Of a stretch of DNA of 64,000 bases, positions 43,545-57,682 are shown piece after piece; the stretch's first letter is position 1, and the number at the start of each line of letters is the position of its first letter. Origin of the DNA: a virus; the IMG/VR virus record IMGVR_UViG_3300043410_001892, positions 308,174 through 372,173 of that record. One strand, given 5' to 3'. The notes below the pieces were generated by a model that searched no databases, had not been told where the DNA came from, and saw only the letters and a list, made by a program, of their open reading frames with translations. The position numbers and the translations under genes were made by a program.

Positions 43545-43578
43545 ACTATAGTAGCAACAACAAAAGGAGAACTACACT

Positions 43579-43803: not shown

Positions 43804-43832
43804 TTGACTTGTCCTACAAAACTTGTTATACT
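43804..43832 (+). promoter_or_regulatory. Sigma70-type promoter (TTGACT-N17-TATACT)
   Basis: Located 25 nt before the first array gene; followed by a T-rich stretch as in other promoters of this region. Confidence 0.7.
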
Positions 43833-43856: not shown

Positions 43857-44108
43857 ATGAAATTCGAAATAGCTCCTATTGATACACATATACTATGTGG
43901 TTCTTATGAAGAAGCCAAGATGTATCTAATGTTTTTAGAAGTCAACGGCAAACGAAAATGGAGACTTCCTACTCGATACGAACACTGTAAATATTTTGTT
44001 GCAGGAGTTAATCTAAATTATAATGATCATATATGGGATCAACGAGATGACAATACTATTCTGTTAAATGGTAACAAACGCCGTGTAATCCCAGTGAGAG
44101 ATTTATGA
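43857..44108 (+). CDS. DUF1566/Lcl-like mini-protein, array member 1
   Basis: 83 aa. EEAKMYLMFLEVNGKRKWRL gives the helix and core where most members read NGHKDWRLPT; it ends RRVIPVRDL. The core is the start of DUF1566/Lcl C-terminal domains (C-type-lectin-related), and the end is their last strand. The middle of the domain is shortened to about 35 residues. Overlaps member 2 by 4 nt at the junction CCAGTGAGAGATTTATGA. Function unknown. Confidence 0.75.
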   Translation: MKFEIAPIDTHILCGSYEEAKMYLMFLEVNGKRKWRLPTRYEHCKYFVAGVNLNYNDHIWDQRDDNTILLNGNKRRVIPVRDL

Positions 44109-44341
44109 CAGAAGTTTCAGATAAGAGTGTATGGTGTAATGAAATATCGTTAGATGATGCTCGATTATATCTGTTATTCTTAAATCATCGAGGACATAAA
44201 GATTGGCGATTTCCTACAGCATTAGAACGAATGATGCTTCCAGAGTTTTCAAAAACAGGAGGGTATTGGTATTCATTTGACCTTGATAGCACTAACATGG
44301 CATCTAAAAAATATACGCTAGTTCCAGTTCGAGATTGCTAA
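44105..44341 (+). CDS. DUF1566/Lcl-like mini-protein, array member 2
   Basis: 78 aa; DDARLYLLFLNHRGHKDWRF then PTALERMM, ending TLVPVRDC. The variable middle is GGYWYSFDLDSTNMASKK. It is followed after 8 nt by a gene with a virion-type leader, so the array is interrupted here. Confidence 0.75.
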   Translation: MTEVSDKSVWCNEISLDDARLYLLFLNHRGHKDWRFPTALERMMLPEFSKTGGYWYSFDLDSTNMASKKYTLVPVRDC

Positions 44342-44349
44342 ATAATAGT

Positions 44350-44607
44350 ATGAAAATAGAAGAATTACTAACAGAACTTACGTTTAAGGGCTCGCAATGC
44401 ACTAAAGACTGCAGTGGTCACGAAGCAGGATTTAATCACCAAGTAAGAAAAGGTACTTCAAGTGACTCATATAGTCCTCATAGTCCTAGTTTTAATAAGG
44501 GTGCAGCTATTGCAAGGGCAGATCGAACTGTAACTAGAGCTCCTCAGCCTCGCGACAAAGGTAGATTTGCTGCTAGACCAAAGCCAAGAACTAAGAAATC
44601 TAAATAG
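44350..44607 (+). CDS. Putative internal virion protein (85 aa)
   Basis: Starts MKIEELLTELTF (leader with possible cut after LTE). CTKDCSGHEAGF is a motif I recall from small T4-like phage proteins. The C-terminus is basic and Pro/Arg-rich (RDKGRFAARPKPRTKKSK), suggesting nucleic acid binding. A TTG 15 nt upstream is rejected in favour of the ATG at 44350. The stop codon overlaps a GGCCCCGCTG element. Confidence 0.75.
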   Translation: MKIEELLTELTFKGSQCTKDCSGHEAGFNHQVRKGTSSDSYSPHSPSFNKGAAIARADRTVTRAPQPRDKGRFAARPKPRTKKSK

Positions 44608-44620
44608 GCCCCGCTGTGCA
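44607..44620 (+). repeat. Intercistronic GC-rich element, copy 1
   Basis: GGCCCCGCTGTGCA, overlapping the stop codon of the 85-aa gene; one base differs from the consensus GGCCCCGCTGTACACA. An inverted repeat GTGCAAG / CTTGCAC follows across 44616-44660. Confidence 0.6.
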
Positions 44621-44694
44621 AGTGTGTGATATACTTATATATATGCGCATGCTTGCACGTTCAAAAAAATTTCAATTTAATCAAGTCGTATACA

Positions 44695-44723
44695 TTGACA
44701 ATGCACACATATATGTGTATTAT
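44695..44723 (+). promoter_or_regulatory. Sigma70-type promoter (TTGACA-N17-TATTAT)
   Basis: Consensus -35 and near-consensus -10 with 17-nt spacing; a GC-rich element lies at about +10 and the 67-aa gene follows. Confidence 0.75.
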
Positions 44724-44739
44724 AACAGTTTTTAACATA

Positions 44740-44756
44740 GACCCCGCTGTACACAT
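44740..44756 (+). repeat. Intercistronic GC-rich element, copy 2
   Basis: GACCCCGCTGTACACAT followed directly by ATAGGAG, the ribosome binding site of the 67-aa gene. Probably in the 5' leader of that mRNA. Confidence 0.7.
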
Positions 44757-44769
44757 ATAGGAGAAAACA

Positions 44770-44973
44770 ATGGCAGACGATTTTGAATCAAGAGTACAAT
44801 TGTCATCAGGTTGTTTGATGTACGTTCGTACACAGCACGATGATGATCGATTAGTAGTGTTTGCATTTAAGCACGATGAGTTTAGATGTGATTTCCAAAT
44901 ATTTTATGACGATTGTAGTGACGAATTTAAAAGCTGGGTAGAACAGCCAGTTATCACTGCTGCTTCGTTTTAG
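44770..44973 (+). CDS. Small acidic protein (67 aa)
   Basis: MADDFESRVQLSSGCLMYVR with FAFKHDEFRCDFQIFYDDCS; alternating beta strands and acidic loops. Strong promoter and GGAG site upstream. Not recognised. The stop codon overlaps the next GC-rich element. Confidence 0.65.
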   Translation: MADDFESRVQLSSGCLMYVRTQHDDDRLVVFAFKHDEFRCDFQIFYDDCSDEFKSWVEQPVITAASF

Positions 44974-44990
44974 GCCCCGCTGTACACATA
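44973..44990 (+). repeat. Intercistronic GC-rich element, copy 3
   Basis: GGCCCCGCTGTACACATA starts within the stop codon (TAG) of the 67-aa gene; it precedes, rather than follows, the next promoter. Confidence 0.7.
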
Positions 44991-45007
44991 ATTGGTAAAA
45001 TCAATAA

Positions 45008-45036
45008 TTGACATTTGAGTTTAGTTACTGTATAGT
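45008..45036 (+). promoter_or_regulatory. Sigma70-type promoter (TTGACA-N17-TATAGT)
   Basis: Strong boxes and spacing, followed by about 370 nt without a convincing gene, so it may drive a non-coding RNA. Confidence 0.75.
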
Positions 45037-45041
45037 ATACG

Positions 45042-45412
45042 GTAACTACAGAAGGTGTCGCGCAAACCACATAGTAACTGCGCCCTATAACTGGACAACT
45101 GTATCACAGTGAAGGAATTGTTGAGCTGTAGCAACGACATAACCACCTACCCATTTGGATGAACATGAGATGTACCTTTACAAAACTCATTACAGGTTAT
45201 GGCCCCGCTGTACACATAAGGTTAAAAGAAGGAGTAGCACTCCTACGATTGTATATGCAGTTAGCATTGTGTATACAGTCCGCCGTCATATTTACCAGGA
45301 CGGAGCTCGAGGTACCGGATGACCGCCTCTGTAATGCTCTAATGCTAAGACATGAAAAACTCAACAAATGTTCGCCATTGGCCTTTACGGGCCAATGTGA
45401 CTTCTTAATCTA
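45042..45412 (+). ncRNA. Candidate non-coding RNA
   Basis: Sequence after the promoter is richer in G and C than its surroundings and has several possible hairpins: GCGCA/TGCGC, ACTGT/ACAGT, GGAGT/ACTCC, GTATAt/GTATAC, and a final strong CATTGGCC/GGCCAATG at about 45376-45397. It contains one GC-rich element. The 84-codon ORF at 45159-45413 has no ribosome binding site and no recognisable sequence, so I do not call it. Class unknown. Confidence 0.4.
45201..45217 (+). repeat. Intercistronic GC-rich element, copy 4
   Basis: GGCCCCGCTGTACACAT, inside the candidate non-coding RNA, followed by AAGG. Confidence 0.7.
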
Positions 45413-45438
45413 ACAAAATATTCAAAGAAATAAAAATT

Positions 45439-45490
45439 CAAATTAAAATAATGAATATGAGCGAATGCGAATTTGAATTATTTTAATTTG
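45439..45490. repeat. 14-bp perfect inverted repeat
   Basis: CAAATTAAAATAAT at 45439-45452 is mirrored by ATTATTTTAATTTG at 45477-45490, with a 24-nt loop. A second small hairpin GAGC/GCTC follows at about 45495. Possible terminator, operator or transcript-end structure. Confidence 0.55.
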
Positions 45491-45533
45491 TTTGTGAGCT
45501 GTAAGCTCGCAATTTTACTATTAGTGAGGAAAT

Positions 45534-45767
45534 ATGATTGAAATATCTGACAAAACTGCATGCAGGAAATTAGGATACAATGAAGCATGGCTGTATTGCT
45601 TAACTTTAAACCATAATGGACATAAAGATTGGCGTATGCCAGCTCAGTTTGATCATTATCAAGGTAACGACTGGCCAACTTCAACTTGGGTTGAAGTAAG
45701 TAACCCAAATAGTATTATAGATATCACTGATACTTTTGGAATAGTCCCAGTAAGAACTATTGATTAA
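45534..45767 (+). CDS. DUF1566/Lcl-like mini-protein, array member 3
   Basis: 77 aa; GYNEAWLYCLTLNHNGHKDW then RMPAQFDH, ending FGIVPVRTID. Isolated from other members, with its own GTGAGGAAAT ribosome binding site. Tyr-Cys before the core (LYC) is conserved in most copies. Confidence 0.78.
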   Translation: MIEISDKTACRKLGYNEAWLYCLTLNHNGHKDWRMPAQFDHYQGNDWPTSTWVEVSNPNSIIDITDTFGIVPVRTID

Positions 45768-45775
45768 ATTATCAT

Positions 45776-45804
45776 TTGTAAATTCTAAAAATTTATATTA
45801 CAAT
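45776..45804 (+). promoter_or_regulatory. Candidate promoter (TTGTAA-N17-TACAAT)
   Basis: Near-consensus boxes with 17-nt spacing and a following T run, 30 nt before the 118-aa gene. Confidence 0.6.
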
Positions 45805-45833
45805 AATGTTTTTTAATAATCATGAGGTGCAAC

Positions 45834-46190
45834 ATGGCAAAAAAAGTTAAGTATAAATCAGCCGAAGATAAACGCCGTGCATTAGAAGCTGAAAAACAAT
45901 GGAAAGAAATGACTAAGACATATGGTCTTAGTGATAAGCCGGCTAATACAAAATCACTTAGAACAATCTCACAGAAAAAAACATTAAGTAATGTTGCACC
46001 AACATATAGAGGTAGTGATAGTAAACCTCCCAGTTTAGTTACAACTACTAAAGGTGGCGGCAGCAAAGTTACAGCTCCAAGATATACCGGTACTTTGATT
46101 AAAGGTATCGCAACGATGCATAAATCAAATGCCGTGCCAATTATTGACCAAGAGCAAGCAACTGAGATTTCACGGATGCGTAGAGGATGA
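45834..46190 (+). CDS. Basic protein of unknown function (118 aa)
   Basis: MAKKVKYKSAEDKRRALEAE then KQWKEMTKTYGLSDKPANTK; strongly basic, low in aromatics, with TYRGSDSKPPSL in the middle and EQATEISRMRRG at the end. It resembles a phage protein group with a YRGSDSKP motif that I have seen before. GAGGTG precedes the ATG. Start base context and the 4-nt overlap with the next array gene suggest co-translation. Confidence 0.75.
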   Translation: MAKKVKYKSAEDKRRALEAEKQWKEMTKTYGLSDKPANTKSLRTISQKKTLSNVAPTYRGSDSKPPSLVTTTKGGGSKVTAPRYTGTLIKGIATMHKSNAVPIIDQEQATEISRMRRG

Positions 46191-46399
46191 CAGAATTTGC
46201 CCCAATGGTCTTCCATCAGCTAACATATAACGATGCATGGATGTACTGTGTTACATTAGAATACGATGGACATAAGGATTGGCGTTTGCCTACTTTTTTA
46301 GAATGGTGTAATAGAAATGATTTACTTGGTTGGTATGAAAACGCGACGGTGCAAGCCGCAACATCAGTGCGAGCTGTTTGCCCAGTGAGGGATATATGA
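46187..46399 (+). CDS. DUF1566/Lcl-like mini-protein, array member 4
   Basis: 70 aa; AWMYCVTLEYDGHKDWRLPT, then WYENATVQAATSVRAVCPVR. Near-identical to the next gene except in residues about 37-60, so a recent tandem duplication. Differences between the two are not restricted to adenines. Confidence 0.78.
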   Translation: MTEFAPMVFHQLTYNDAWMYCVTLEYDGHKDWRLPTFLEWCNRNDLLGWYENATVQAATSVRAVCPVRDI

Positions 46400-46608
46400 T
46401 AGAATTTGCCGCAATGGTCTTCCATCAGCTAACATATAGCGAGGCATGGATGTACTGTGTTACATTAGAATACGATGGACATAAGGATTGGCGCCTGCCA
46501 ACCCTTAACGAATGGAGTAATAGTAGTGAATTACTCGGTTGGTATGAAAACGCGTCGCCGGTTTTCACCCATTCTAAGCGAGCTGTTTGCCCAGTGAGGG
46601 ATATATGA
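46396..46608 (+). CDS. DUF1566/Lcl-like mini-protein, array member 5
   Basis: 70 aa; shares EFAAMVFHQLTYSEAWMYCV almost exactly with member 4 and diverges after DWRLPT (LNEWSNSSELLGWYENASPV). Starts inside the stop of member 4 (ATGA) with GTGAGGGAT as ribosome binding site. Confidence 0.78.
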   Translation: MIEFAAMVFHQLTYSEAWMYCVTLEYDGHKDWRLPTLNEWSNSSELLGWYENASPVFTHSKRAVCPVRDI

Positions 46609-46865
46609 TAGAATTTGGTCCATTATCTAGTACAAAATTTTTGTATCGAGATGCATGGCTATATTGTCACACCTTTAATTATAATGGACATAAGGATTGG
46701 CGTATGATAACAAAAGCAGATGCATTCGTATTAGCGTTGGACGGTATAACCATCTATTCTGGTACTTGGATTGATAAAACTGTTCCTGATCACATGTTAA
46801 GTAATAATATATTTGGCGACTTTACACGAGCCCATGTAATACCAGTGAGGGATAAAAATGATTGA
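46605..46865 (+). CDS. DUF1566/Lcl-like mini-protein, array member 6
   Basis: 86 aa; RDAWLYCHTFNYNGHKDWRM, but ITKADAF replaces the usual PT-x-x-E. Longer variable part (TVPDHMLSNNIFGDFTRAHV), ending IPVRDKND. Divergent member. Confidence 0.75.
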   Translation: MIEFGPLSSTKFLYRDAWLYCHTFNYNGHKDWRMITKADAFVLALDGITIYSGTWIDKTVPDHMLSNNIFGDFTRAHVIPVRDKND

Positions 46866-47079
46866 TTTTGCAGAACTACCAGATTATAGGTTTACTTATA
46901 ATGAAGCATTTCTTTATTGTATAACACTAAGTTACAATGGTCATAAAGACTGGAGAATGCCAACACACGACGAATATATGAATTGCAAAGAGATTGCTAG
47001 TGAATCGTTTGATGACAGTGATGACCCTAAAGATATTAAAGCTAAATATCCCATTGTACCAGTCCGTGATGTGAACTAA
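46858..47079 (+). CDS. DUF1566/Lcl-like mini-protein, array member 7
   Basis: 73 aa; NEAFLYCITLSYNGHKDWRM then PTHDEYMN, acidic middle (DDSDDPKDIKAKYP), ending IVPVRDVN. Overlaps member 6 by 8 nt. Ends a run; a new promoter follows within 10 nt. Confidence 0.78.
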   Translation: MIDFAELPDYRFTYNEAFLYCITLSYNGHKDWRMPTHDEYMNCKEIASESFDDSDDPKDIKAKYPIVPVRDVN

Positions 47080-47086
47080 TAACTAC

Positions 47087-47115
47087 TTGCAAATTCTAAT
47101 ATAATTTGTTATAAT
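47087..47115 (+). promoter_or_regulatory. Promoter (TTGCAA-N17-TATAAT)
   Basis: First clear example of the TTGCAA-type promoter that recurs to the right, with a T-rich tract after the -10. Confidence 0.8.
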
Positions 47116-47142
47116 TATTTTTTAAACTAAATGCGAGGTTAT

Positions 47143-47235
47143 ATGATTGATTTATTTTTAACTCTAAGTTTAATTGTAGTAATGCTATATTTGATGAATA
47201 AAGTTAGTGAGATTATCGAACATGATAGAATTTAG
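47143..47235 (+). CDS. Tiny membrane protein (30 aa)
   Basis: MIDLFLTLSLIVVMLYLMNK, a single transmembrane helix with a short charged tail (VSEIIEHDRI). GCGAGGTT precedes the ATG. Overlaps the next gene start by 14 nt. Could be real given promoter and ribosome binding site; no family. Confidence 0.5.
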   Translation: MIDLFLTLSLIVVMLYLMNKVSEIIEHDRI

Positions 47236-47470
47236 TACGCTATCTGATCAGATGGTTGACAGAGAAACTGCCATCATGTTAGAGTTTATGTGCTGTCACA
47301 ACAATAAAAAAGGTTGGAGATTTCCAACCGATCGAGAATACATCACTCGTAAAGAAATCCCATATGGAGTTTGGTCTAAAGGGTTAGTTGATCGTAATGA
47401 TAAAAAATCAAGATTATGCTTTTTTGTGAGAGATATAAATGACGAAAACATGGAAAGTAGCAGTAGGTGA
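47222..47470 (+). CDS. DUF1566/Lcl-like mini-protein, array member 8
   Basis: 82 aa; ETAIMLEFMCCHNNKKGWRF then PTDREYITRKEI. Diverged core (NNKKGWRFPT), then CFFVRDIND followed by an extra ENMESSSR read past the usual end, which overlaps member 9 by 32 nt. Confidence 0.7.
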   Translation: MIEFSTLSDQMVDRETAIMLEFMCCHNNKKGWRFPTDREYITRKEIPYGVWSKGLVDRNDKKSRLCFFVRDINDENMESSSR

Positions 47471-47741
47471 TTACGTAGTAGAAGTTGCTGATTATCCACG
47501 TAACTATATGTCGTATGATGAAGCAGCTATGCACTGTTTGTTTTTGAAAATCAATAAAGCAGCTGGTTGGCGAATACCAACTGCAGCTGAATATAACAAA
47601 ATTGATGGCATCACTTGTATAATTGATAGATATCGTGATAGTGGGCTATCAGCACCATTTGATCAACGTGATTTTGAGTCAGCAATACGTCGACCATTAT
47701 TACCAGTTAGAACTATCAAAGACCCCGCTGTACACACGTAG
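47439..47741 (+). CDS. DUF1566/Lcl-like mini-protein, array member 9
   Basis: 100 aa, longer N-terminus (MTKTWKVAVGDYVVEVADYP), then DEAAMHCLFLKINKAAGWRI and PTAAEYNK, ending PLLPVRTIKDPAVHT. The last residues DPAVHT are encoded by a copy of the GC-rich element. Confidence 0.7.
   Translation: MTKTWKVAVGDYVVEVADYPRNYMSYDEAAMHCLFLKINKAAGWRIPTAAEYNKIDGITCIIDRYRDSGLSAPFDQRDFESAIRRPLLPVRTIKDPAVHT
47721..47736 (+). repeat. Intercistronic GC-rich element, copy 5
   Basis: GACCCCGCTGTACACA at the 3' end of member 9, whose stop lies 3 nt further (CGTAGG). Confidence 0.7.
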
Positions 47742-47779
47742 GAAAATAGTAAATAATGAATTAGCCCGGGAGGAAAGTT

Positions 47780-48040
47780 ATGAAAAAACTTATTTTATCA
47801 GTTTTAGAAACTGGTCCAAAGACTCCGATTGAATTATTCAATCTTTGCAAGTTTACAGATCCTTATGTATTTGCAAGAACCATAACTGAACTCACTATTT
47901 CTAAGAAGATTCAAAGAAATGTGATAATCCCTAACCATCCTACAGTTTATCATTCAATTACCGCAGTACCTAATAAACTATTTGAGAATCTCTCATGGGA
48001 AGATATTCGGGTAGAATACCATTTGACATCCACACAGTAA
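47780..48040 (+). CDS. Small winged-helix-like protein (86 aa)
   Basis: MKKLILSVLETGPKTPIELF with LCKFTDPYVFARTITELTIS and KKIQRNV. The order helix, helix-turn-helix, wing fits a small transcription regulator. GGGAGGAAAG gives a strong ribosome binding site. Target unknown. Confidence 0.6.
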   Translation: MKKLILSVLETGPKTPIELFNLCKFTDPYVFARTITELTISKKIQRNVIIPNHPTVYHSITAVPNKLFENLSWEDIRVEYHLTSTQ

Positions 48041-48051
48041 TACACTATAAT
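48023..48051 (+). promoter_or_regulatory. Sigma70-type promoter (TTGACA-N17-TATAAT)
   Basis: Perfect boxes, overlapping the end of the winged-helix-like gene and 33 nt before the 72-aa gene. Confidence 0.85.
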
Positions 48052-48083
48052 TTAACACATTACAACAACTTTAAGGAATCTAA

Positions 48084-48302
48084 ATGCAAGTGACGCAGAA
48101 CAATAAGGGCGATACAGTTGGTATTATTAAAGACGCAGAGGAAACAGTTATACTAAATTATTCCTTTTGGGAATGCGATTGTTCAACTATGTTTATACGA
48201 CCGGTAACTATTACACATTGTCGACAATGTGGTGCTGATCGTGATGACAGTCCTATTGCAAATGATCTTCATGTACAGATTTTTGTTTATAACACTATTT
48301 AA
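48084..48302 (+). CDS. Small zinc-ribbon-like protein (72 aa)
   Basis: FWECDCSTMFIRPVTITHCR followed by QCGADRDD: C-x-C and C-x-x-C pairs about 15 residues apart could bind zinc. Acidic C-terminus. Possible regulator or adaptor; not recognised. Confidence 0.65.
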   Translation: MQVTQNNKGDTVGIIKDAEETVILNYSFWECDCSTMFIRPVTITHCRQCGADRDDSPIANDLHVQIFVYNTI

Positions 48303-48314
48303 TAAGGAGTAACT

Positions 48315-49394
48315 ATGACACTCGAAGCAACTGCTATTTCAATTCTTGAAGGCGAAGAAGTAAGTCCAATTGATAAAAAAGATGCAATGGAACTTATCGA
48401 ACACTTACAAGCATGGCTGCCAAATTATCCACAAGGTTCAAATAAGTTTATTTCTTATCTACATAAGAATTTAACTCCAATTCACGCAGTCTACGGTTTA
48501 TACTCTGCAGTTGACAATGGTAGTTTAGAAATTACACATCGTAATCTCCAAACTATGATGTTGTTTGAAAAAGATCTTGGTTACTTAGTCAAACATTTAG
48601 AAAATCCAGAGAAGAAGATAAACTTCTTCAATGCTATGCTTAAAGGTACTGATATTTCGTATGTCGAGCTGGAACTAACTAGTCCGTTTATGATTCAACC
48701 AGAAGAAGAGATTGGCACTGGTACATACGAACAAACTGTTGCGATTGAAGATTTATTTGCTAATACTGAAGAAGAAGATACTACAACAGCAGCTTCGACG
48801 ACCTCAGCGCCAAGTGTATCAACTGCAACTAAATCGTCTACTAATAAAATATCAGAACCATTTAAAGATATTTTAGATACTGCTGCTAAAAAAGTACTTG
48901 GCGTAGGAGTTAAGAAGACTGATGCTGAAAAAGATCAAGAACAAGATGATCATGATGCATACTATGTATATACGCAGTATTTGTATCAGTTTACCCCGGA
49001 TGAAGACTGTGATCTTGCTATCTCAGTAGTATCGCAAAAGTTTTGGGATGACAACGGATATCTTGATGATCAACACATCTCGGAGTATTTAGAAGCGATT
49101 ATTCCAGACTGGTCCGATAACTGGTGTGAAACTATGGAAAGTGTATTTGAATACACTGGTGGTTCAACTAAGGCAGAAGCTATTGCTTATTTAAAAGCAA
49201 CTGGGTTCTTTAAAGAAGAAGAACTATTTGATGTTGAATTTAGTAAAGCAGATATCTTACTAGGTTATCTTGAAGGCCAACCTGAAGAAATAATTTCTAA
49301 GTTTCTCAAAGAGGCACTTACACATCTTGATGAAAGCCAAATTGAAGACTTAATTCAAAAGTATGAAGACGCTTGGCACGAAGAGGATGATTGA
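48315..49394 (+). CDS. Acidic unknown protein (359 aa)
   Basis: Largest gene of the right-hand region. Two helical domains (residues 1-150 and 215-359) are joined by a Thr/Ser-rich linker (DTTTAASTTSAPSVSTATKS). The C-terminus is very acidic (QKYEDAWHEEDD). AAGGAGTAAC precedes the ATG. Its 3' end overlaps the next array gene by 8 nt. No family recognised; may be a DNA-mimic-like acidic protein, which is speculative. Confidence 0.75.
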   Translation: MTLEATAISILEGEEVSPIDKKDAMELIEHLQAWLPNYPQGSNKFISYLHKNLTPIHAVYGLYSAVDNGSLEITHRNLQTMMLFEKDLGYLVKHLENPEKKINFFNAMLKGTDISYVELELTSPFMIQPEEEIGTGTYEQTVAIEDLFANTEEEDTTTAASTTSAPSVSTATKSSTNKISEPFKDILDTAAKKVLGVGVKKTDAEKDQEQDDHDAYYVYTQYLYQFTPDEDCDLAISVVSQKFWDDNGYLDDQHISEYLEAIIPDWSDNWCETMESVFEYTGGSTKAEAIAYLKATGFFKEEELFDVEFSKADILLGYLEGQPEEIISKFLKEALTHLDESQIEDLIQKYEDAWHEEDD

Positions 49395-49608
49395 TATACA
49401 CGATCTAGGCATATCAACTGATTACACCACTGCATGGTTGATATGCCTAACCATGGAACACAACGGACATAAAGATTGGCGATTGCCAACATGGTATGAC
49501 TATATAAATAGTGCAGAACTACATGACTGCTGGTATGAAGATGATTTTTACACCGTATACATAGGAAAGAACGTATTTGCAGTTCGTAGCAAAGAGGCCC
49601 CACTGTAA
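49387..49608 (+). CDS. DUF1566/Lcl-like mini-protein, array member 10
   Basis: 73 aa; TTAWLICLTMEHNGHKDWRL then PTWYDYINSAEL. The usual end PVRD is replaced by FAVRSKEAPL, where the last codons and stop are a variant GC-rich element (GGCCCCACTGTAA). Start at 49387 overlaps the 359-aa gene. Confidence 0.75.
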   Translation: MIDIHDLGISTDYTTAWLICLTMEHNGHKDWRLPTWYDYINSAELHDCWYEDDFYTVYIGKNVFAVRSKEAPL

Positions 49609-49826
49609 TGGAAAAAATAGAAATTGCTCAAACTACTCGAAAATCCTTAACTTATGCTGAAGCACAGATGTATTGTTTTGTGTATGAAGAGAATAATATT
49701 CGTGGTTGGAGATTACCAACTGAAGATGAGTATGTAAACCACAATGAAATATGGGGTTGGGTTCAAGATGATGAACGTCAAGACGAGTACGGTACCTTGA
49801 GAGTTACTCCAGTGAGAGATTTATGA
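49608..49826 (+). CDS. DUF1566/Lcl-like mini-protein, array member 11
   Basis: 72 aa; AEAQMYCFVYEENNIRGWRL then PTEDEYVNHNEI, ending LRVTPVRDL. Diverged core (NNIRGWRLPT). Shares its first base with the preceding stop (TAATG). Confidence 0.76.
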   Translation: MEKIEIAQTTRKSLTYAEAQMYCFVYEENNIRGWRLPTEDEYVNHNEIWGWVQDDERQDEYGTLRVTPVRDL

Positions 49827-50056
49827 TTGAGTTTGCCCCTCAATCACCAACCAATATGTCATTTGATGAAGCATTTCTCTATTGTTTAACACTTAACTAC
49901 AAAGGACATAAGGATTGGTCTATACCTTATAGACGAGAGAAACGCTCATACATGATAGGTACTTGGTCTATTGATGATATAAAACTGATAGAGTTTTACT
50001 ATTCATCTGATACAAAGACATCTGTATTTCCTATTAGAGGTTATTATGAATCATGA
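49823..50056 (+). CDS. DUF1566/Lcl-like mini-protein, array member 12
   Basis: 77 aa; DEAFLYCLTLNYKGHKDWSI, with P-Y-RRE instead of PT-x-x-E. The tail reads VFPIRGYYES rather than PVRD, showing drift at the C-terminus. Confidence 0.74.
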   Translation: MIEFAPQSPTNMSFDEAFLYCLTLNYKGHKDWSIPYRREKRSYMIGTWSIDDIKLIEFYYSSDTKTSVFPIRGYYES

Positions 50057-50273
50057 ATACGGTATAAGATCGCCCGATCGCTTAACTTTTGACGAAGCAT
50101 TTCTGTATTGCCTTACACATAATTTTAATGGACATAAAGATTGGTATATGCCAACTTTTACTATGTGGGTATTTGATGATGTTATTACTGGCTGGCATAG
50201 TTCAGCTAAACTGCAACGTGATATTAGTTATGACATATCACGAGTTATACCAGTGAGAGATATAGATGATTGA
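50046..50273 (+). CDS. DUF1566/Lcl-like mini-protein, array member 13
   Basis: 75 aa; DEAFLYCLTHNFNGHKDWYM then PTFTMWVF, ending RVIPVRDIDD. Starts MNHEYGIRS instead of MIE-x-A-P and overlaps member 12 by 11 nt. Confidence 0.76.
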   Translation: MNHEYGIRSPDRLTFDEAFLYCLTHNFNGHKDWYMPTFTMWVFDDVITGWHSSAKLQRDISYDISRVIPVRDIDD

Positions 50274-50481
50274 AATTGCATATAAAACTATAAAAGACAT
50301 GGATTACGATACTGCATGGCTTTATTGTTTGGTATATGAGAAAGACGGGCATAAAGATTGGCGATTGCCTAGTCGTGACGAATACTTTAATACTGACGGA
50401 ATACATCTACATACTTGGTTTGAAAACAGAGAAGATGACACTAAATGGTGTTGCCAACCAGTGAGAGGTATAGATGATTGA
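50266..50481 (+). CDS. DUF1566/Lcl-like mini-protein, array member 14
   Basis: 71 aa; DTAWLYCLVYEKDGHKDWRL then PSRDEYFN, aromatic-rich middle (HLHTWFENREDDTKWCC), ending QPVRGIDD. First of four consecutive genes joined by the junction CCAGTGAGAGATATAGATG or a one-base variant. Confidence 0.78.
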   Translation: MIEIAYKTIKDMDYDTAWLYCLVYEKDGHKDWRLPSRDEYFNTDGIHLHTWFENREDDTKWCCQPVRGIDD

Positions 50482-50686
50482 ATTTGCTATACGATCTCAA
50501 GAAGAAATGGTTTACGACCAAGCATTTCTGTATTGTCTAACACTCGAGTATAATGGACATAAAGATTGGCGATTGCCTACAGGAATTGAATATTCTATTA
50601 CGGATGCGCTATCATTTTGCTGGTTTGAAGAAAGAAAAACCGGCGAAAGATGGGTATGTCAACCAGTGAGAGATATAGATGATTGA
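50474..50686 (+). CDS. DUF1566/Lcl-like mini-protein, array member 15
   Basis: 70 aa, close to the family consensus: DQAFLYCLTLEYNGHKDWRL, PTGIEY, FCWFEERKTGERWVC, QPVRDIDD. Overlap of 8 nt on both sides. Confidence 0.8.
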   Translation: MIEFAIRSQEEMVYDQAFLYCLTLEYNGHKDWRLPTGIEYSITDALSFCWFEERKTGERWVCQPVRDIDD

Positions 50687-50891
50687 AAAAGGACCAGCAG
50701 CTGGAAAAAAACTTCATTATAGAGAAGCGTGGATGTATTGTCTTACACTCTCTTATAACGGACACAAAGATTGGCGTATGCCAAGTTACTTTGAAACTAA
50801 TTACGGGTGGAATGAACGAGATGTAATGAACCCTAATTTAGAATCGCCCTATCAATATTCAATTATACCAGTGAGAGATATAGATGATTGA
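50679..50891 (+). CDS. DUF1566/Lcl-like mini-protein, array member 16
   Basis: 70 aa; REAWMYCLTLSYNGHKDWRM then PSYFETNYGWN, ending SIIPVRDIDD. N-terminus MIEKGPAAGKKLHY differs from the usual MIE(F/Y)AP. Confidence 0.78.
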   Translation: MIEKGPAAGKKLHYREAWMYCLTLSYNGHKDWRMPSYFETNYGWNERDVMNPNLESPYQYSIIPVRDIDD

Positions 50892-51090
50892 ATACGCCCC
50901 ACCAACAACAGAATGTGTAGACTATGACACTGCTTGGCTGTATTGCGTTACCCTAGCACACGATAACAAATACGACTGGCGAATGCCAACACATAAAGAA
51001 TATGAGACTTCTCCATTTATATTAGGTTGGTTTGTAGATAGACCACAGACTGAAAATCTCTGGACTTGCCAACCAGTGCGTGATTGTTAA
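50884..51090 (+). CDS. DUF1566/Lcl-like mini-protein, array member 17
   Basis: 68 aa; DTAWLYCVTLAHDNKYDWRM, PTHKEYE, LGWFVDRPQTENLWTC, ending QPVRDC. Core Gly-His-Lys replaced by Asn-Lys-Tyr. Last of a run of eight; a promoter follows. Confidence 0.77.
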   Translation: MIEYAPPTTECVDYDTAWLYCVTLAHDNKYDWRMPTHKEYETSPFILGWFVDRPQTENLWTCQPVRDC

Positions 51091-51095
51091 ACCAT

Positions 51096-51124
51096 TTGCA
51101 ATTTTAAATTTATACTGTTATAAT
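51096..51124 (+). promoter_or_regulatory. Promoter (TTGCAA-N17-TATAAT)
   Basis: Consensus spacing; a CCCCGCGGGAG stretch at about 51142-51152 in the leader resembles a shortened GC-rich element fused to the ribosome binding site. Confidence 0.8.
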
Positions 51125-51157
51125 ATATTTTTATTTACACACCCCGCGGGAGTATAT

Positions 51158-51451
51158 ATGTCTAACGAACTTATTGAAAAATTAGCACAAGACCCAGGTT
51201 CTCATTCAGCTTACATTGAGGATTCAGAATTACGAGAAATGGCAATTGTATGGGCAGTTGTAATTCGTAATGAAACCCGACCAGATCATTATTCAGAGTA
51301 TGTAAAACGAATAGATGAGATGAAGAAAAATGAGCCATTGTTGTATAGACGATTTGCTGACTATCTAGTCGATACTGTTGAAAACGGTACACATAGCGCA
51401 GCTTGGAGTGCACCAGCAGACCGTATTCGTAGAACATTACTACCTAAGTGA
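51158..51451 (+). CDS. Unknown helical protein (97 aa)
   Basis: MSNELIEKLAQDPGSHSAYI, HYSEYVKRIDEMKKNEPLLY then RRFADYLVDTVENG. Helical, no motif recognised. First gene of a new transcription unit with GGGAG before the ATG. Confidence 0.65.
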   Translation: MSNELIEKLAQDPGSHSAYIEDSELREMAIVWAVVIRNETRPDHYSEYVKRIDEMKKNEPLLYRRFADYLVDTVENGTHSAAWSAPADRIRRTLLPK

Positions 51452-51458
51452 GGTAAGC

Positions 51459-51662
51459 ATGGCAATTGAACACGCGCCACGTTCTGAACATAAGATGAGT
51501 TACGAACAAGCAGAGATATACGCATTTATGTGTAACCATGACGGTAAGCGCGGTTGGCGCTTACCGACCTTTAACGAGTTTGTGGATCCTAATACATGGT
51601 ATAAAGATGCTGAGATTACTAAAAGAAAGTGGTTTGTTGCACCAGTGAGGGATATAAAATGA
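51459..51662 (+). CDS. DUF1566/Lcl-like mini-protein, array member 18
   Basis: 67 aa; EQAEIYAFMCNHDGKRGWRL then PTFNEFVDPNTWYKDA, ending FVAPVRDIK. Core reads DGKRGWRLPT. Confidence 0.77.
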   Translation: MAIEHAPRSEHKMSYEQAEIYAFMCNHDGKRGWRLPTFNEFVDPNTWYKDAEITKRKWFVAPVRDIK

Positions 51663-51991
51663 ACTTTGAGATATCACCAAAAACGATGGAGATACACGCT
51701 ACGTGGGATCAAGCAGTTATTTACTGTTTTGGTTTAGGAGATGGTTGGCGATTACCAACGTTGGCGGAATTACAAGAAATAACCACAATCTCTAAAAATT
51801 CCCTTAATCCTACAACAAGCGTACTAACACATGTCCCATATCATGATATGGCAAATAAATGGCATTGGTCGTCTGACGAATATGAGTATAATAACAATAA
51901 AGTCTTGTGTTTCAATTATTGGACCAATACAATGTGGGACTGCGATAAAAACAACTGTTATATTATTAGACCAGTGAGGGATATAAAATGA
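51659..51991 (+). CDS. Longer DUF1566/Lcl-like protein, array member 19
   Basis: 110 aa, the most complete domain in the array: WDQAVIYCFGLGDGWRLPTL and AELQEI, then KWHWSSDEYEYNNNKVLCFN and YWTNTMWD, ending YIIRPVRDIK. The WHWSSDEY and VRPVR-type strands are the second half of DUF1566/Lcl domains. This copy links the shorter members to the family. Confidence 0.82.
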   Translation: MNFEISPKTMEIHATWDQAVIYCFGLGDGWRLPTLAELQEITTISKNSLNPTTSVLTHVPYHDMANKWHWSSDEYEYNNNKVLCFNYWTNTMWDCDKNNCYIIRPVRDIK

Positions 51992-52194
51992 AAGCTAAAG
52001 AACTAATTAAATTATTATCACAACATCCTAACGCTGATGTGGTTATAAGTGACTATAATGGTTGGGAAACACCATTTTATGATGTCGATGCTATTGAATT
52101 CCATGAAAATAGTTATCCTGTTGGTGAAAATATTAGAAAAAGTGCCAAGCCTAATAATGGTTTGGTTACTTTCACATTGGGTAAGAGACATTAA
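51988..52194 (+). CDS. Small unknown protein (68 aa)
   Basis: MKAKELIKLLSQHPNADVVI, then SDYNGWETPFYDVDAIEF. The first half matches small phage/bacterial proteins that start with a K-ELI-x-x-L-x-x-P-x-A-x-V pattern. Its 3' end runs, in another frame, over a VRDIK-encoding junction that starts the next gene. Confidence 0.7.
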   Translation: MKAKELIKLLSQHPNADVVISDYNGWETPFYDVDAIEFHENSYPVGENIRKSAKPNNGLVTFTLGKRH

Positions 52195-52195
52195 A

Positions 52196-52591
52196 ATGAT
52201 TGAATATGCACCAATCGCTATTACCAAACAACACTATGACAACAGATCCTCAGTTTATTCGGATAAATTGTTTGTGGTATGGATGCCAGATAATACCAGA
52301 AGAAAAACAATCGAACTAGCCATTAAATCAGTAAGTTTATCTTGGGCTAATTTAGCACATGATGATTTGTCAGAGTTAGATTTATCAGGTCTAGATCTTT
52401 CTTATGCTGATTTATCGTTTGCAAATTTGTCAAATGCTAATCTAACCAATACGAATTTATTTCAAGCAAGTTTACGTGGAGCAGATCTTACAGGTGCATT
52501 ACTTGACAATACCAACCTACAATATGTGGATCTGTCCTATGCAACTTTAGATCATACCAACTTACACAACTGCAACTTCCATAAATTATGA
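52196..52591 (+). CDS. Pentapeptide-repeat protein with array-type N-terminus
   Basis: 131 aa. Residues 1-8 (MIEYAPIA) are the array leader. Residues about 50-128 are pentapeptide repeats of the type A(D/N)LS: LDLSGLDLSYADLSFANLSN then TNLFQASLRGADLTGALLDN. These form a right-handed quadrilateral helix, and some relatives mimic DNA. A fusion of the array start signal to an unrelated domain. Confidence 0.85.
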   Translation: MIEYAPIAITKQHYDNRSSVYSDKLFVVWMPDNTRRKTIELAIKSVSLSWANLAHDDLSELDLSGLDLSYADLSFANLSNANLTNTNLFQASLRGADLTGALLDNTNLQYVDLSYATLDHTNLHNCNFHKL

Positions 52592-52902
52592 ATATTGAAC
52601 TAGCCCCTTACAAATATTGGCTGATTGACACTAATTTTGACACAGCTAAAATGCACTGCTTTTTTCTTAACATTGACAATAAGCTTGGTTGGCGTTTACC
52701 AACTAATCAAGAAGCCTGTGATCTTGTTAATTTTGTTGAATCGTTAGATACTGATTTCCCAAAAGAATTACAAGAGTTTTCAGAGTATTGGTTTGATGAC
52801 GAGAGTTATGGTTTTTGGACTTTTGAAGATGAAGATCTTCATTCAAATGCAGATTTAGGCGAATTATTTACAGTAATCCCCGTGAGAGATAAAGATGCTT
52901 GA
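52588..52902 (+). CDS. Longer DUF1566/Lcl-like protein, array member 20
   Basis: 104 aa; DTAKMHCFFLNIDNKLGWRL then PTNQEACDLV, a long acidic insert (FDDESYGFWTFEDEDLHSNA), ending FTVIPVRDKDA. Core reads DNKLGWRLPT. Confidence 0.75.
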   Translation: MNIELAPYKYWLIDTNFDTAKMHCFFLNIDNKLGWRLPTNQEACDLVNFVESLDTDFPKELQEFSEYWFDDESYGFWTFEDEDLHSNADLGELFTVIPVRDKDA

Positions 52903-53104
52903 ACATGCACCAAGAATAGAAAAAGATATGTGTTATGATACCGCATGGCTTCACTGCCTAACACTTAACTATAATGGCCATAAAGATTGGCGATTACCAA
53001 CTCAAAGAGAATATGATAAATCTAGTATAACAATAAGTTGGTTTGAAGATAGATTACCAACACCATTACAATGGTACTGTCAACCTGTACGCGATATAAT
53101 ATAA
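52895..53104 (+). CDS. DUF1566/Lcl-like mini-protein, array member 21
   Basis: 69 aa, consensus-like: DTAWLHCLTLNYNGHKDWRL, PTQREYDK, SWFEDRLPTPLQWYC, ending QPVRDII. Last member before a new promoter. Confidence 0.79.
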   Translation: MLEHAPRIEKDMCYDTAWLHCLTLNYNGHKDWRLPTQREYDKSSITISWFEDRLPTPLQWYCQPVRDII

Positions 53105-53106
53105 TC

Positions 53107-53135
53107 TTTACAAATCAACAAATAATTGCTATACT
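53107..53135 (+). promoter_or_regulatory. Promoter (TTTACA-N17-TATACT)
   Basis: Near-consensus boxes with a T-rich tract after the -10, followed by a GC-rich element and the 200-aa gene. Confidence 0.7.
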
Positions 53136-53161
53136 ATATTTTTTTAACACTACAGCAAGCA

Positions 53162-53180
53162 GGCCCCGCTGTACACACAG
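53162..53180 (+). repeat. Intercistronic GC-rich element, copy 6
   Basis: GGCCCCGCTGTACACACAG merging into GGAGC, the ribosome binding site of the 200-aa gene. CTGT/ACAG could form a small hairpin next to it. Confidence 0.72.
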
Positions 53181-53189
53181 GAGCATAAC

Positions 53190-53792
53190 ATGGCAACACG
53201 TAGCGCAATTGGTTTTATGAGAAACGATGGTACTGTCCGTGCAGTATATTGTCATTGGGATGGATACTTATCACACGTTGGTAAAATCCTTATTGAGAAT
53301 TATGATTTACTTGGTGTTGATGACTTATGCGATTTAGGTGATATAAGCTCATTAGGTGAAACAATTGAAGATACTGTGTTTTACGGACGCGATCGCAACG
53401 AAGATGATGTTGAAGCACATGAGTTTGCATCTGAACAAGAGTTTGTAGATTGGTATGATGATTCTGAGTTTTTCTACTTAATAAAAGATGACAAATGGTA
53501 TGTGTCAGAACATTGCGAAGAGTTCTCGTTACTTGAAGATCGTTTAAAAGATACAAAAGTTAAGTTTACTAAGTATGTTCGTCCAGATGAAACAACAACA
53601 TCCTACAGTGCAAGAGATGCAGTAGTAGCAATGGTAGCCGATGGTGTAGTTGAACCAGTGTATATGGTTAAGTTATTGCTTGATCGTATTGATCCTGAAA
53701 CATTAGAAGCGTTGTTGAAAGAAGAATTCCACATTGACGAGATCATTCCAGAATGCTACTTTGAAGAGGAGGAAAATAATGAAATTGATTAA
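53190..53792 (+). CDS. Conserved phage protein, ATRSAIG family (200 aa)
   Basis: MATRSAIGFMRNDGTVRAVY then CHWDGYLSHVG is a well-marked N-terminal signature I recall from many phages and plasmids (ATRS-x-I-x...VYCHWDGY). The C-terminal half is acidic. Function unknown. Overlaps the next gene by 14 nt. Confidence 0.85.
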   Translation: MATRSAIGFMRNDGTVRAVYCHWDGYLSHVGKILIENYDLLGVDDLCDLGDISSLGETIEDTVFYGRDRNEDDVEAHEFASEQEFVDWYDDSEFFYLIKDDKWYVSEHCEEFSLLEDRLKDTKVKFTKYVRPDETTTSYSARDAVVAMVADGVVEPVYMVKLLLDRIDPETLEALLKEEFHIDEIIPECYFEEEENNEID

Positions 53793-54009
53793 ACTAACAG
53801 AGTTAAACACTGATCCTATGGTAATACCTAACACTTATCATATACCAGTTGAGAAAATTGATTATGTTATTGAACATGAAACAGGATCAACTGTTGTAGT
53901 CAATCGTGCAGATTTAAGGGTAATTGAACCAGCTGAATATATCAATAGCATATTATCAGCTAATACTGATTTTAGTAATTTTGGAGGGTTTGATGAGTAC
54001 GTCAATTAA
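53779..54009 (+). CDS. Small unknown protein (76 aa)
   Basis: MKLIKLTELNTDPMVIPNTY, IDYVIEHETGSTVVVNRADL; looks like a short beta domain found in phage proteins that restate a contextual MKLIKLT start. GAGGAGGAAAA gives a strong ribosome binding site in the preceding gene. Not recognised. Confidence 0.66.
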   Translation: MKLIKLTELNTDPMVIPNTYHIPVEKIDYVIEHETGSTVVVNRADLRVIEPAEYINSILSANTDFSNFGGFDEYVN

Positions 54010-54283
54010 AGTCAATGTTGTAGCTAAGGATTCTAAACCTAAAAAACCAGTAATCAAAAAACGTTTGGTTCAGGTTGATAATCATCGCATTCGAATCGCT
54101 GAAACTGATTTGCCACATAAAGGTAATGTTGACCTGCATGATCCTAAGATTAAAGAACGCGGACCTAATCAAGAATTGGTAGTGTATGCTACTGCCAAAG
54201 AAGATACTTACGAACCTGGGAGAGAATACGTCTGTTACTTTACTCTTAAAGGTAAACTTGAAGGTTACTTCACAGTCAATTAG
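53993..54283 (+). CDS. Small basic beta protein (96 aa)
   Basis: MSTSIKVNVVAKDSKPKKPV, then VQVDNHRIRIAETDLPHKGN and EYVCYFTLKGKLEGYF. GGAGGG precedes the ATG. Overlaps the previous gene by 17 nt. Function unknown. Confidence 0.66.
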   Translation: MSTSIKVNVVAKDSKPKKPVIKKRLVQVDNHRIRIAETDLPHKGNVDLHDPKIKERGPNQELVVYATAKEDTYEPGREYVCYFTLKGKLEGYFTVN

Positions 54284-54291
54284 AAGGCACA

Positions 54292-54696
54292 ATGAATATT
54301 ACATTTGCAAGTTTAAAGACAACTGGTAAAGTTGAAACAGTATGGTGTGTACTTGATCTTGGTATGTCAAATTATTATAGTGACCTAGGTTACAGAGATC
54401 ATATTCGAGATTATCTAATAGTATGGGGTAGGCGTGGTGGCAAATTACAGACTATTGTGAAACGAGGACACACTAAAATCTCTATCAATAAAGACATTTA
54501 CGATCAAGAATTTCGCGAAAATATGTGGGGTTTTTACCAAATTACTCACGGCCAAGGTATGGCTATAGCTAAACGGATTTATAAGATTCTTAAGAAAGAT
54601 TATATTCCATTTAAGGCAGATTCTCTCGAAGAGATTGATCCAAACTTACCTGAACAGCTAAACAAATTAGTATTTTGGGAGACTATGAAATTATGA
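54292..54696 (+). CDS. WGR-like domain protein (134 aa)
   Basis: MNITFASLKTTGKVETVWCV, then DYLIVWGRRGGKLQTIVKRG: the WGRRGG-x-LQ element resembles WGR domains, which bind DNA in PARP-type and bacterial proteins. Ends FWETMKL. Paralogous to the gene at 55104. Possible DNA-binding accessory protein. Confidence 0.7.
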   Translation: MNITFASLKTTGKVETVWCVLDLGMSNYYSDLGYRDHIRDYLIVWGRRGGKLQTIVKRGHTKISINKDIYDQEFRENMWGFYQITHGQGMAIAKRIYKILKKDYIPFKADSLEEIDPNLPEQLNKLVFWETMKL

Positions 54697-54875
54697 GTGG
54701 ATTAGGATATATTGCAGCTGAACTTGAACAGTGTTGTGAACTCTGTGGCAAAATTGAAGAATGTCGTCCGTATGGTCCTAATGGTGAACAAATCTGTTTT
54801 GACTGTGGTATGAAAGATGAAGAAACTACTAAACAACAGATGGCAAAGTATATCTTTGGAGTAGACAGTGATTAA
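54693..54875 (+). CDS. Small zinc-finger protein (60 aa)
   Basis: CCELCGKIEECRPYGPNGEQ then ICFDCGMKDEET: two C-x-x-C pairs typical of a zinc ribbon. It could be a regulator or an adaptor to another protein. Start overlaps the WGR-like gene as ATGA. Confidence 0.72.
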   Translation: MSGLGYIAAELEQCCELCGKIEECRPYGPNGEQICFDCGMKDEETTKQQMAKYIFGVDSD

Positions 54876-55107
54876 AGATAATCCGTTGCTCGATTATGCT
54901 CCACCGTTAAATAAACCTGTAGATGAAGATACCGCATTCATGTATTGTATAACACTAAGTTACAATGGTTATAAAGACTGGAGATTCCCAACAAGACCTG
55001 AATTTGGAGATACGGGTGATGTATGGTTTGACGGTGAGAACTTTTCTAATGCATCTGGCTATTGGAGATGGCGAGTTCAACCAGTAAGATCTAAAGAGGA
55101 TATATGA
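54868..55107 (+). CDS. DUF1566/Lcl-like mini-protein, array member 22
   Basis: 79 aa from a GTG start; DTAFMYCITLSYNGYKDWRF then PTRPEFGD, middle with WFDGENFSNASGYWRWR, ending VQPVRSKEDI. It sits between two WGR-like paralogues, apart from the rest of its family. Confidence 0.73.
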   Translation: MIKDNPLLDYAPPLNKPVDEDTAFMYCITLSYNGYKDWRFPTRPEFGDTGDVWFDGENFSNASGYWRWRVQPVRSKEDI

Positions 55108-55989: not shown

Positions 55990-56018
55990 TTGCAATGCCA
56001 AACAAACTTTGCTATAAT
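55990..56018 (+). promoter_or_regulatory. Promoter (TTGCAA-N17-TATAAT)
   Basis: Perfect -10, TTTGC before it (extended -10 character), and ATATTTTTT after it. Confidence 0.85.
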
Positions 56019-56233: not shown

Positions 56234-56262
56234 TTGCAATCCAGCTTACACTTTGCTATAAT
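56234..56262 (+). promoter_or_regulatory. Promoter (TTGCAA-N17-TATAAT), duplicated sequence
   Basis: Identical, including its spacer (TCCAGCTTACACTTTGC) and T-rich downstream tract, to the promoter at 60672. Confidence 0.88.
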
Positions 56263-57079: not shown

Positions 57080-57274
57080 ATGATAGAATTTTCATTTGAC
57101 GAACAAAATGGTGTTATTCATCGTACTAATGGTCCAGCTTGGATAAATCCAGGATATGGACATACTCCACTTGGATACTATTGGCATTGGCGGCTATTTG
57201 GCGTTAGACATCGTTATTATGGACCGCAAAATCGGGATGGTGATTGGTGGTTACATGGGAAGAGAGTAAAATGA
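57080..57274 (+). CDS. HR-GPA repeat mini-protein, array member 1
   Basis: 64 aa with two copies of an about 24-aa repeat: VIHRTNGPAW...W-x-WRLFG and VRHRYYGPQN...WWLHGKRVK. Repeats of this HR-x-x-GPA...W-x-x-G kind occur as long tandem chains in some phage and giant-virus proteins. Here each gene holds one and a half to two units. Starts MIEFSF after GAGATTAT, right behind a terminator. Confidence 0.75.
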   Translation: MIEFSFDEQNGVIHRTNGPAWINPGYGHTPLGYYWHWRLFGVRHRYYGPQNRDGDWWLHGKRVK

Positions 57275-57474
57275 TTGAAATACGAAACACTGCTAACAAT
57301 GGATTTGTATATCTTTTAGATGGTAATTGGCATCGATCTAATGGCCCTGCTAGGGTATGGGCAAATGGAGAATGGGGATGGTATTTAACTGATCGCCAAC
57401 ATCGCTATTATGGTCCGCAAGCAAACAATGAGTGGTGGATACATGGGGAGTGTATAAAATATGGATTCGACTAA
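57271..57474 (+). CDS. HR-GPA repeat mini-protein, array member 2
   Basis: 67 aa; WHRSNGPARVWANGEWGWYL then HRYYGPQANNEWWIHGECIK. Starts inside the preceding stop (ATGA), with GGGAAGAGAG as ribosome binding site. Confidence 0.76.
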   Translation: MIEIRNTANNGFVYLLDGNWHRSNGPARVWANGEWGWYLTDRQHRYYGPQANNEWWIHGECIKYGFD

Positions 57475-57682
57475 GTCACAACGATATTTATACAGTTATT
57501 TAACACCTAATGATACAGTTGAGTACAAATTGCATACTGGTGGGTTTCATCGATGTGATGGACCTGCACTAACACGATATGAAAGATGGGCATGGTTTTT
57601 ATATGATCAACATCATCGGTATTATGGTCCGCAGCACTCACATTATCCTAATTGGATGATTCATGGGAAGAGGGTTAAATGA
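57461..57682 (+). CDS. HR-GPA repeat mini-protein, array member 3
   Basis: 73 aa; longer N-terminus (MDSTKSQRYLYSYLTPNDTV), FHRCDGPALTRYERWAWFLY, then HRYYGPQHSHYPNWMIHGKR. Most similar to member 11, not to its neighbours. Confidence 0.76.
   Translation: MDSTKSQRYLYSYLTPNDTVEYKLHTGGFHRCDGPALTRYERWAWFLYDQHHRYYGPQHSHYPNWMIHGKRVK

Follow-up and report, generated by a model that had tools for sequence, protein, structure and literature searches.

The window analysed here comprises 64,000 nt (bases 308174–372173) of the 372,173-bp virus record IMGVR_UViG_3300043410_001892, a jumbo phage, and contains an array of 22 open reading frames (ORFs) of 67–110 amino acids (aa), all on the + strand at 43857–55107, which encode small relatives of the Lcl_C/DUF1566 domain (hereafter mini-lectins). 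In this family, the codons for the conserved protein tail are biased towards a Shine-Dalgarno (SD) sequence for the next, overlapping gene, and alignments with related phages indicate that whole units come and go at these junctions, while each unit is under purifying selection. We are very confident of this architecture. The full account, in which the array is an early-expressed, cassette-built repertoire of cytosolic binders with a mini-lectin fold, has in our judgement an even chance of being correct.

Gene arrays and the tail junction

A profile built from the 22 array ORFs was run against all six frames of the window and recovered these ORFs and no others, with E values of 1e-16 to 2e-31; the next-best ORF reached only E 0.18. 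The 22 genes with a shared core and a PVRD tail, as described in the initial annotation, therefore stand far above the background. Its picture of one single array had to be revised, since the genes belong to a record-wide set of at least 49 copies (22 in the window, 26 at 2.4–43.8 kb and one on the opposite strand at 290.9 kb), and the window array is broken by other small genes into strings of one to eight mini-lectin genes. It also left out a second, unrelated array further downstream. Because orthologues of the groups at both record ends stand in one order in the related record G002 (319–360 kb), the two ends of the record are probably joined, and the arrays probably form one zone of ~64 kb. 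The conserved features include an invariant A, WR, P, a central W and PVR, in line with the initial annotation.

The overlap between adjacent units is usually 4 or 8 nt long (ATGA or ATGATTGA). The PVR(D/T) tail is written like CCAGTGAGRGAT, which places GAG or GAGG ~8 nt upstream of the next ATG; the PVRD codons read GTGAGRGAT, and the junction sequence GTGAGAGAT is the tail stretch carrying the GAG. As a control, the tails were recoded synonymously in 300 runs, with codons sampled from these genes themselves. Strong SD-like motifs, from a list picked after inspection of the data, were found at 85% of 91 overlapping starts compared with 15% in the recoded sequences (maximum 26%). The plain core GAG/AGG/GGA, which was not picked in this way, was present at 97% of the real junctions compared with 55% after recoding (maximum 71%). 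Furthermore, the tail arginine is encoded by AGR in 131 of 147 cases before an ATG-started next ORF, versus 14 of 26 without such a following ORF (Fisher p 7e-5, the relatives not being independent), and AGR is used at the WR of the same genes in 50 of 168 cases. The tail codons double as the SD sequence of the next gene, beyond what synonymous coding predicts. With overlapping genes and SD sequences inside the preceding gene, the arrangement fits the earlier suggestion that the set is expressed together. In comparison with integrons, the junction consists of coding sequence and an SD sequence with overlapping ORFs, leaving little room for a usual attC site.

Domain ancestry and predicted fold

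PF07603 Lcl_C (DUF1566) was matched by 60 of 111 diverse members at E≤0.01 (best 3e-16), and no other family was matched repeatedly, in line with the DUF1566/Lcl ancestry assigned in the initial annotation. For most matching members examined, the alignment spans about positions 19–57 of the 117 in the model, and among the window members scanned only 51659–51988 lies above the cut-off (Table 1). Longer members of the mini-lectin arrays reach or approach this cut-off, and in the arrays of the relatives there are also longer units that carry the usual YWSS...VR end, such as the one of 97 aa at G002:329982. Because these stand in the same arrays, the mini-lectins are most simply explained as shortened DUF1566 domains that have retained the helix, the WRLPT motif, a single Trp and the final strand. 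They share with Lcl_C/DUF1566 (PF07603; C-terminal domain of Legionella Lcl, 8Q4E) the motif order of helix, GxxxWRLPT, central W and terminal V/I-R strand. However, they are ~70 aa long, free-standing, cytosolic-looking and arranged in overlapping strings, whereas Lcl is a secreted trimer with fused collagen repeats. The earlier statement that the domain is normally about twice as long was too strong, since the ~70 residues here compare with 117 positions in the Pfam model and with residues 314–399 for the DUF1566 segment of Lcl (PMC11162425).

The AlphaFold2 model of the ~70-residue product of unit 50474, built from 111 sequences, has a predicted local distance difference test score (pLDDT) of 93.8 and contains two helices as well as an N- and a C-terminal strand. 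All 15 rows listed by VIA-align are C-type-lectin-like or Link domains, none of them with Z≥8. The best match is poxvirus A33 (Z 7.5, 62 residues aligned, 2.4 Å, 13% identity), followed by MBP (Z 5.5), CD94/NKG2A (5.2) and TSG-6 (4.9), with E-selectin also listed. The Foldseek result was weak (E 1.2), with no match at E≤0.001 against PDB and BFVD, and a PDB sequence search with the family profile gave nothing significant, the Lcl domain 8Q4E appearing only at E 0.71. Based on the consistent VIA-align list and the Pfam link, a minimal C-type-lectin-like domain is a good prediction for the mini-lectin product, although not a proof; for this single member, the lectin-like core expected in the initial annotation was recovered. 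A33 is the closest solved fold and likewise a short C-type-lectin-like domain, but it is an envelope protein of an animal virus with no sequence relationship shown.

The Ca2+/sugar motifs of C-type lectins (EPN/QPD, WND) are absent from the family consensus. A conserved disulfide is not seen there either: the frequent Cys of LYC has no conserved partner, and 140 of 167 members contain 0–2 Cys. A hydrophobic leader is not evident (maximum 15-aa hydropathy, median 0.64), and the median net charge is -4. The absence of these motifs and of a conserved disulfide from the consensus argues against a classical Ca2+-dependent carbohydrate-binding C-type lectin and, together with the lack of an evident leader, makes a cytosolic, non-classical lectin fold likely.

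As an alternative that we consider improbable, the mini-lectins could be virion or adhesion subunits, forming a set of tail-tip proteins or lectin-like decorations by which the phage attaches to different hosts. DUF1566 is an adhesin domain in Lcl (PMC11162425) and a frequent target domain of diversity-generating retroelements (DGRs) (PMC6642488), and the same phage encodes long collagen-like fibre proteins (window 7795–11056 and 27313–29610). However, fibre, collagen and signal sequences are all missing from the mini-lectins, and their genes and the structural module are on opposite strands. Their median net charge is also negative, whereas Lcl binds sulphated glycans. Moreover, no reverse transcriptase was found in the record, and the sigma-70-like promoters of the mini-lectin zone have no counterpart in the structural module.

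These promoters form a recurring motif. TTGCAA-17-TATAAT with an extended -10 (TGC before the -10) occurs in ~34 near-identical copies in the paralogue zone (G000 zone 1–54 kb and window 47107–60692), all forward, with none inside an array gene and none in the structural half (window 1–42500), and shuffled sequence gave 0 matches. The exact -10 core is found 29 times in the whole record, always forward and always in the zone, with 0 copies in reverse and 0 for a reversed-pattern control, and it is also present in the zones of the relatives. A generic promoter scan of the array was overall at chance (66 vs 64), so that only the recurring motif is meaningful. Since the promoters are of the host sigma-70 type, they suggest early expression of the zone.

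Turnover and selection of the units

Comparison of the related phages shows units gained, lost and reordered whole, with breakpoints placed by the alignments at the junctions. Unit G004:81464 is present in one and absent from the other of G002 and G004, with flanking homology blocks that overlap by 11 nt at the junction, and the same holds for unit G002:357976 with a 22-nt overlap. Five units in the order 358410, 358606, 358820, 359218 and 360298 in G002 have orthologues in G004 in the order 358410, 359218, 358820, 358606 and 360298. Next to differing neighbours, homology stops near the gene borders, either from about -32 to 0 relative to the start codon or from 0 to +12 relative to the stop codon (gapped cases excluded). 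In addition, the DNA of window unit 50474 together with its junctions aligns over 256 bases with a single unit of the G002/G003 array at 85% identity, while the rest of that array gives only weak matches to the window array. As a separate observation, a SegE-like GIY-YIG endonuclease gene with NUMOD3 motifs lies 2 kb before the array (window 40998–41771) and possibly drives local recombination; a Pfam GIY-YIG search of the record came back empty, although other models detect this gene.

Such turnover bears on the idea that the units are subunits of a heteromeric assembly in the infected cell, with the diverse centres reflecting different positions in it. Serial translation of many paralogues from one mRNA would suit such an assembly, the C-terminal domain of Lcl trimerises, and A33, which gave the best structural match, forms a C-type-lectin-like dimer. 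However, the units come, go and change order between close relatives, which would not be expected of subunits in a fixed assembly, and the positions conserved in DUF1566 are described as belonging mainly to the core rather than to a shared interface (PMC11162425). We regard this as the least probable of the alternatives considered.

Paralogues have a mean identity of 41% in the segment that runs from the start to WRLPT, compared with 18% for the centre and 68% for the tail. Within a genome, paralogues are mostly 35–55% identical, whereas G002–G004 orthologues are mostly 80–99% identical. Between orthologues of four genome pairs, the ratio of nonsynonymous to synonymous substitution rates (dN/dS, Nei-Gojobori; small samples, with confidence intervals that overlap in some cases) was 0.32, 0.35, 0.34 and 0.21 for the centre and 0.17, 0.20, 0.21 and 0.10 for the N-terminal part. 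On these alignments, the centre is diverse across units and stable within a unit, and "variable centre" denotes divergence between paralogues, not hypervariability. The initial annotation was thus right about diversity between paralogues, but active diversification of the centre is not supported, given the conserved orthologous centres and the lack of a reverse transcriptase match. The dN/dS comparison along the gene that it proposed yields purifying selection in both parts, weaker in the centre. No RVT_1 match was found in the 372-kb record while controls were detected, the record being possibly incomplete. A DGR was rejected as the source of variety, given the lack of an RVT_1 match, the conserved orthologous centres and paralogues that differ throughout. 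The C-type-lectin-fold targets of DGRs also combine a lectin-fold scaffold with a variable region, but the variety of the mini-lectins comes from whole-gene turnover. The binder repertoire suggested in the initial annotation remains plausible in this altered form, as a library changing by whole-gene gain, loss and shuffling instead of hypermutation.

The main rival explanation, although an unlikely one in our view, is a duplication ratchet: the junction recombines easily, the units are self-sufficient and harmless, most copies have a weak or redundant function, and the array is mainly a by-product of slack in genome size in a large phage. This would account for the variation of copy number and content between close relatives, for the similar amplification of two unrelated families in one genome, where they can share one string (LLLLLLLHHHL at 41408–43829), and for the fusion of two mini-lectin units in a single ORF (8862–9296 of the record). 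However, orthologous units are conserved (dN/dS 0.10–0.35) between phages with dS up to ~1, and single-gene orthologues persist at 78–93% identity in otherwise diverged arrays.

For the cassette-built repertoire, we propose the following mechanism. Each unit would be a ~210-nt gene whose product is a C-type-lectin-like domain that descends from DUF1566/Lcl_C, has been reduced to a minimum and stays in the cytosol. The end of the unit would encode PVR(D/T), with the same codons serving as the SD sequence of its successor. As the ATG of this successor overlaps the stop, a string of units would be translated serially from a single mRNA. Recombination may also take place at the shared junction sequence, where frame and ribosome site survive, and whole units could be duplicated, lost, reordered or exchanged between phages. 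Each unit, once present, would be kept by purifying selection, centre included, and distinct functions per unit are therefore implied. The variable centre may form the binding face, through which each small binder would hold its own host or competitor factor, for instance a defence protein; host defence or takeover factors would be the most likely targets. More tentative, with somewhat less than an even chance, is the wider reading as a modular binder library, in which ~50 interchangeable overlapping cassettes with a triple-role junction, each directed at its own host or competitor protein, are traded between phages, and a second scaffold has been amplified alike in one lineage.

Several observations weigh against this proposal. 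The layout is not strict, as shown by units outside strings and long members such as 51659. Between units, GHKDWRLPT shares as much exact DNA as the junction; the notion that the junction is uniquely homologous was dropped for this reason, and the position of the breaks at junctions needs more than microhomology as an explanation. If chimeric or broken genes were selected against, the pattern would be the same as with recombination acting at the junction. The dN/dS of the centre is about twice that of the N-terminal part, which fits relaxed constraint as well as a binding face. Furthermore, the case for early timing consists of the promoter consensus, and recognisable anti-defence genes are few in the zone.

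If the proposal is true, the phage keeps and trades a large library of small binders by whole-gene movement, whereas DGRs mutate one gene. Each genome would then offer ~50 testable candidates for anti-defence or host-takeover proteins, built on a natural scaffold of 70 residues that tolerates wide change in its centre. A junction that may combine protein tail, ribosome site and recombination site would be a simple general design common to two unrelated families of this genome; through it, the long-standing puzzle of the many tiny early genes hoarded by large phages could be put to a direct test.

Known systems and other features

Among the contigs searched, strings of mini-lectin genes were confined to the phage group studied here (G000/G001, G002/G003, G004, G005 and L081). 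Elsewhere in genome and viral contigs, most matches were longer Lcl_C proteins; nearly all these relatives are ORFs of 113–1500 aa, and none stands in such a string. One contig of a Rhodospirillales metagenome-assembled genome (L056) carries six neighbouring longer Lcl_C ORFs of 172–213 aa, a tandem long-form family in a bacterial contig. A tblastn search of 50,697 phage records returned no convincing mini relative and no cultured phage with such an array, a longer relative giving weak matches only. Judged by NrdB, Xanthomonas phage X1 (62%) is the closest phage in culture, which does not make the host certain. We found no paper describing such a mini-lectin array.

Small-domain expansion in one jumbo phage and the amplification of anti-defence genes in T4-like phages are already known. 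T4 amplifies the anti-defence gene tifA by recombination at 6–10 bp microhomology (PMC9391042), and the segmental amplification of tifA/dmd in T4 and the SegB-driven amplification of anti-defence loci likewise yield tandem small phage genes via short homologies (PMC9391042; PMC13096335). However, the T4 repeats are recent and identical with varying ends, whereas the mini-lectin copies are old, 35–55% identical and individually conserved, with a fixed functional junction. The lineage-specific zinc-ribbon expansion of Bacillus phage G (~35 copies) is similar in that dozens of one small domain occur in one jumbo phage, but the fold is different, and an overlapping cassette layout is not described in the relevant passage of that survey, which also reports no FGS-type C-type-lectin domains in jumbo phages (PMC7824862). 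Within the searches made, the arrays of mini C-type-lectin-like domains, the junction with its SD sequence in the tail as unit border, and the evidence for unit-wise turnover are new.

Table 1. Mini-lectin genes, promoters and the second array in the window
Feature	Position	Strand	Remark
Sigma-70-type promoter TTGACT-17-TATACT	43804..43832	+	directly upstream of first array gene
Mini-lectin (Lcl_C-like) gene 1	43857..44108	+	G002 orthologue 59% identical
Mini-lectin gene 2	44105..44341	+	overlaps gene 1 by 4 nt
Mini-lectin gene 3	45534..45767	+	
Mini-lectin gene 4	46187..46399	+	
Mini-lectin gene 5	46396..46608	+	76% identical to gene 4, closest paralogue pair of the window
Mini-lectin gene 6	46605..46865	+	
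Mini-lectin gene 7	46858..47079	+	CGT in tail; end overlapped by no gene
Zone-type promoter TTGCAA-17-TATAAT, extended -10	47087..47115	+	
Mini-lectin gene 8	47222..47470	+	
Mini-lectin gene 9	47439..47741	+	
Mini-lectin gene 10	49387..49608	+	
Mini-lectin gene 11	49608..49826	+	
Mini-lectin gene 12	49823..50056	+	
Mini-lectin gene 13	50046..50273	+	
Mini-lectin gene 14	50266..50481	+	
Mini-lectin gene 15	50474..50686	+	structure predicted; protein 83% identical to one unit of the otherwise different G002/G003 array
Mini-lectin gene 16	50679..50891	+	
Mini-lectin gene 17	50884..51090	+	tail CGT, not AGR; end overlapped by no array gene or ATG-started ORF
Zone-type promoter TTGCAA-17-TATAAT	51096..51124	+	
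Mini-lectin gene 18, 67 aa	51459..51662	+	
Mini-lectin gene 19, 110 aa	51659..51991	+	longest member in the window; PF07603 38.5 vs cut-off 34.9 bits
Mini-lectin gene 20, 104 aa	52588..52902	+	
Mini-lectin gene 21	52895..53104	+	
Zone-type promoter TTTACA-17-TATACT	53107..53135	+	
Mini-lectin gene 22	54868..55107	+	start uncertain: GTG 54868 or TTG 54886
Zone-type promoter	55990..56018	+	upstream of second array
Zone-type promoter	56234..56262	+	upstream of second array
Second, unrelated array	57080..59868	+	14 genes of single-repeat family, same overlapping layout

The second family comprises 57 copies of 50–85 aa with the pattern HRxNGPA...W.L.G..HRYYGP...W.IHG..IK. Besides the 14 genes in the window, members are located at G000 19838–43593, and the two families together occupy ~22.7 kb. 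Its junctions follow the same SD trend in weaker form (51% vs 20%). The predicted fold is only partly confident (pLDDT 81; best structural match Z 4.5), and no assignment was made. In four related contigs the family had no match, an empty answer that is not proof of absence, and in a further contig (L097) it adjoins one Lcl-like gene.

Other features include a Polynucleobacter-1 RNA (RF01718) at window 45055–45199, in a gap between array strings, which is kept at the corresponding place in two related phages (L025:6606–6750 and L028:3995–4139). An ORF at window 41808–42527 weakly matches (2e-5) the PHROG of a host-transcription-inhibiting protein kinase. An RlaP-type RNA-repair nucleotidyltransferase (G000:C1:11557–12492; L009), also within the mini-lectin zone, is a plausible counter-defence gene. 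Finally, a shikimate dehydrogenase-like gene at window 61800–62627, with three Pfam domains over the cut-off, is a possible auxiliary metabolic gene.

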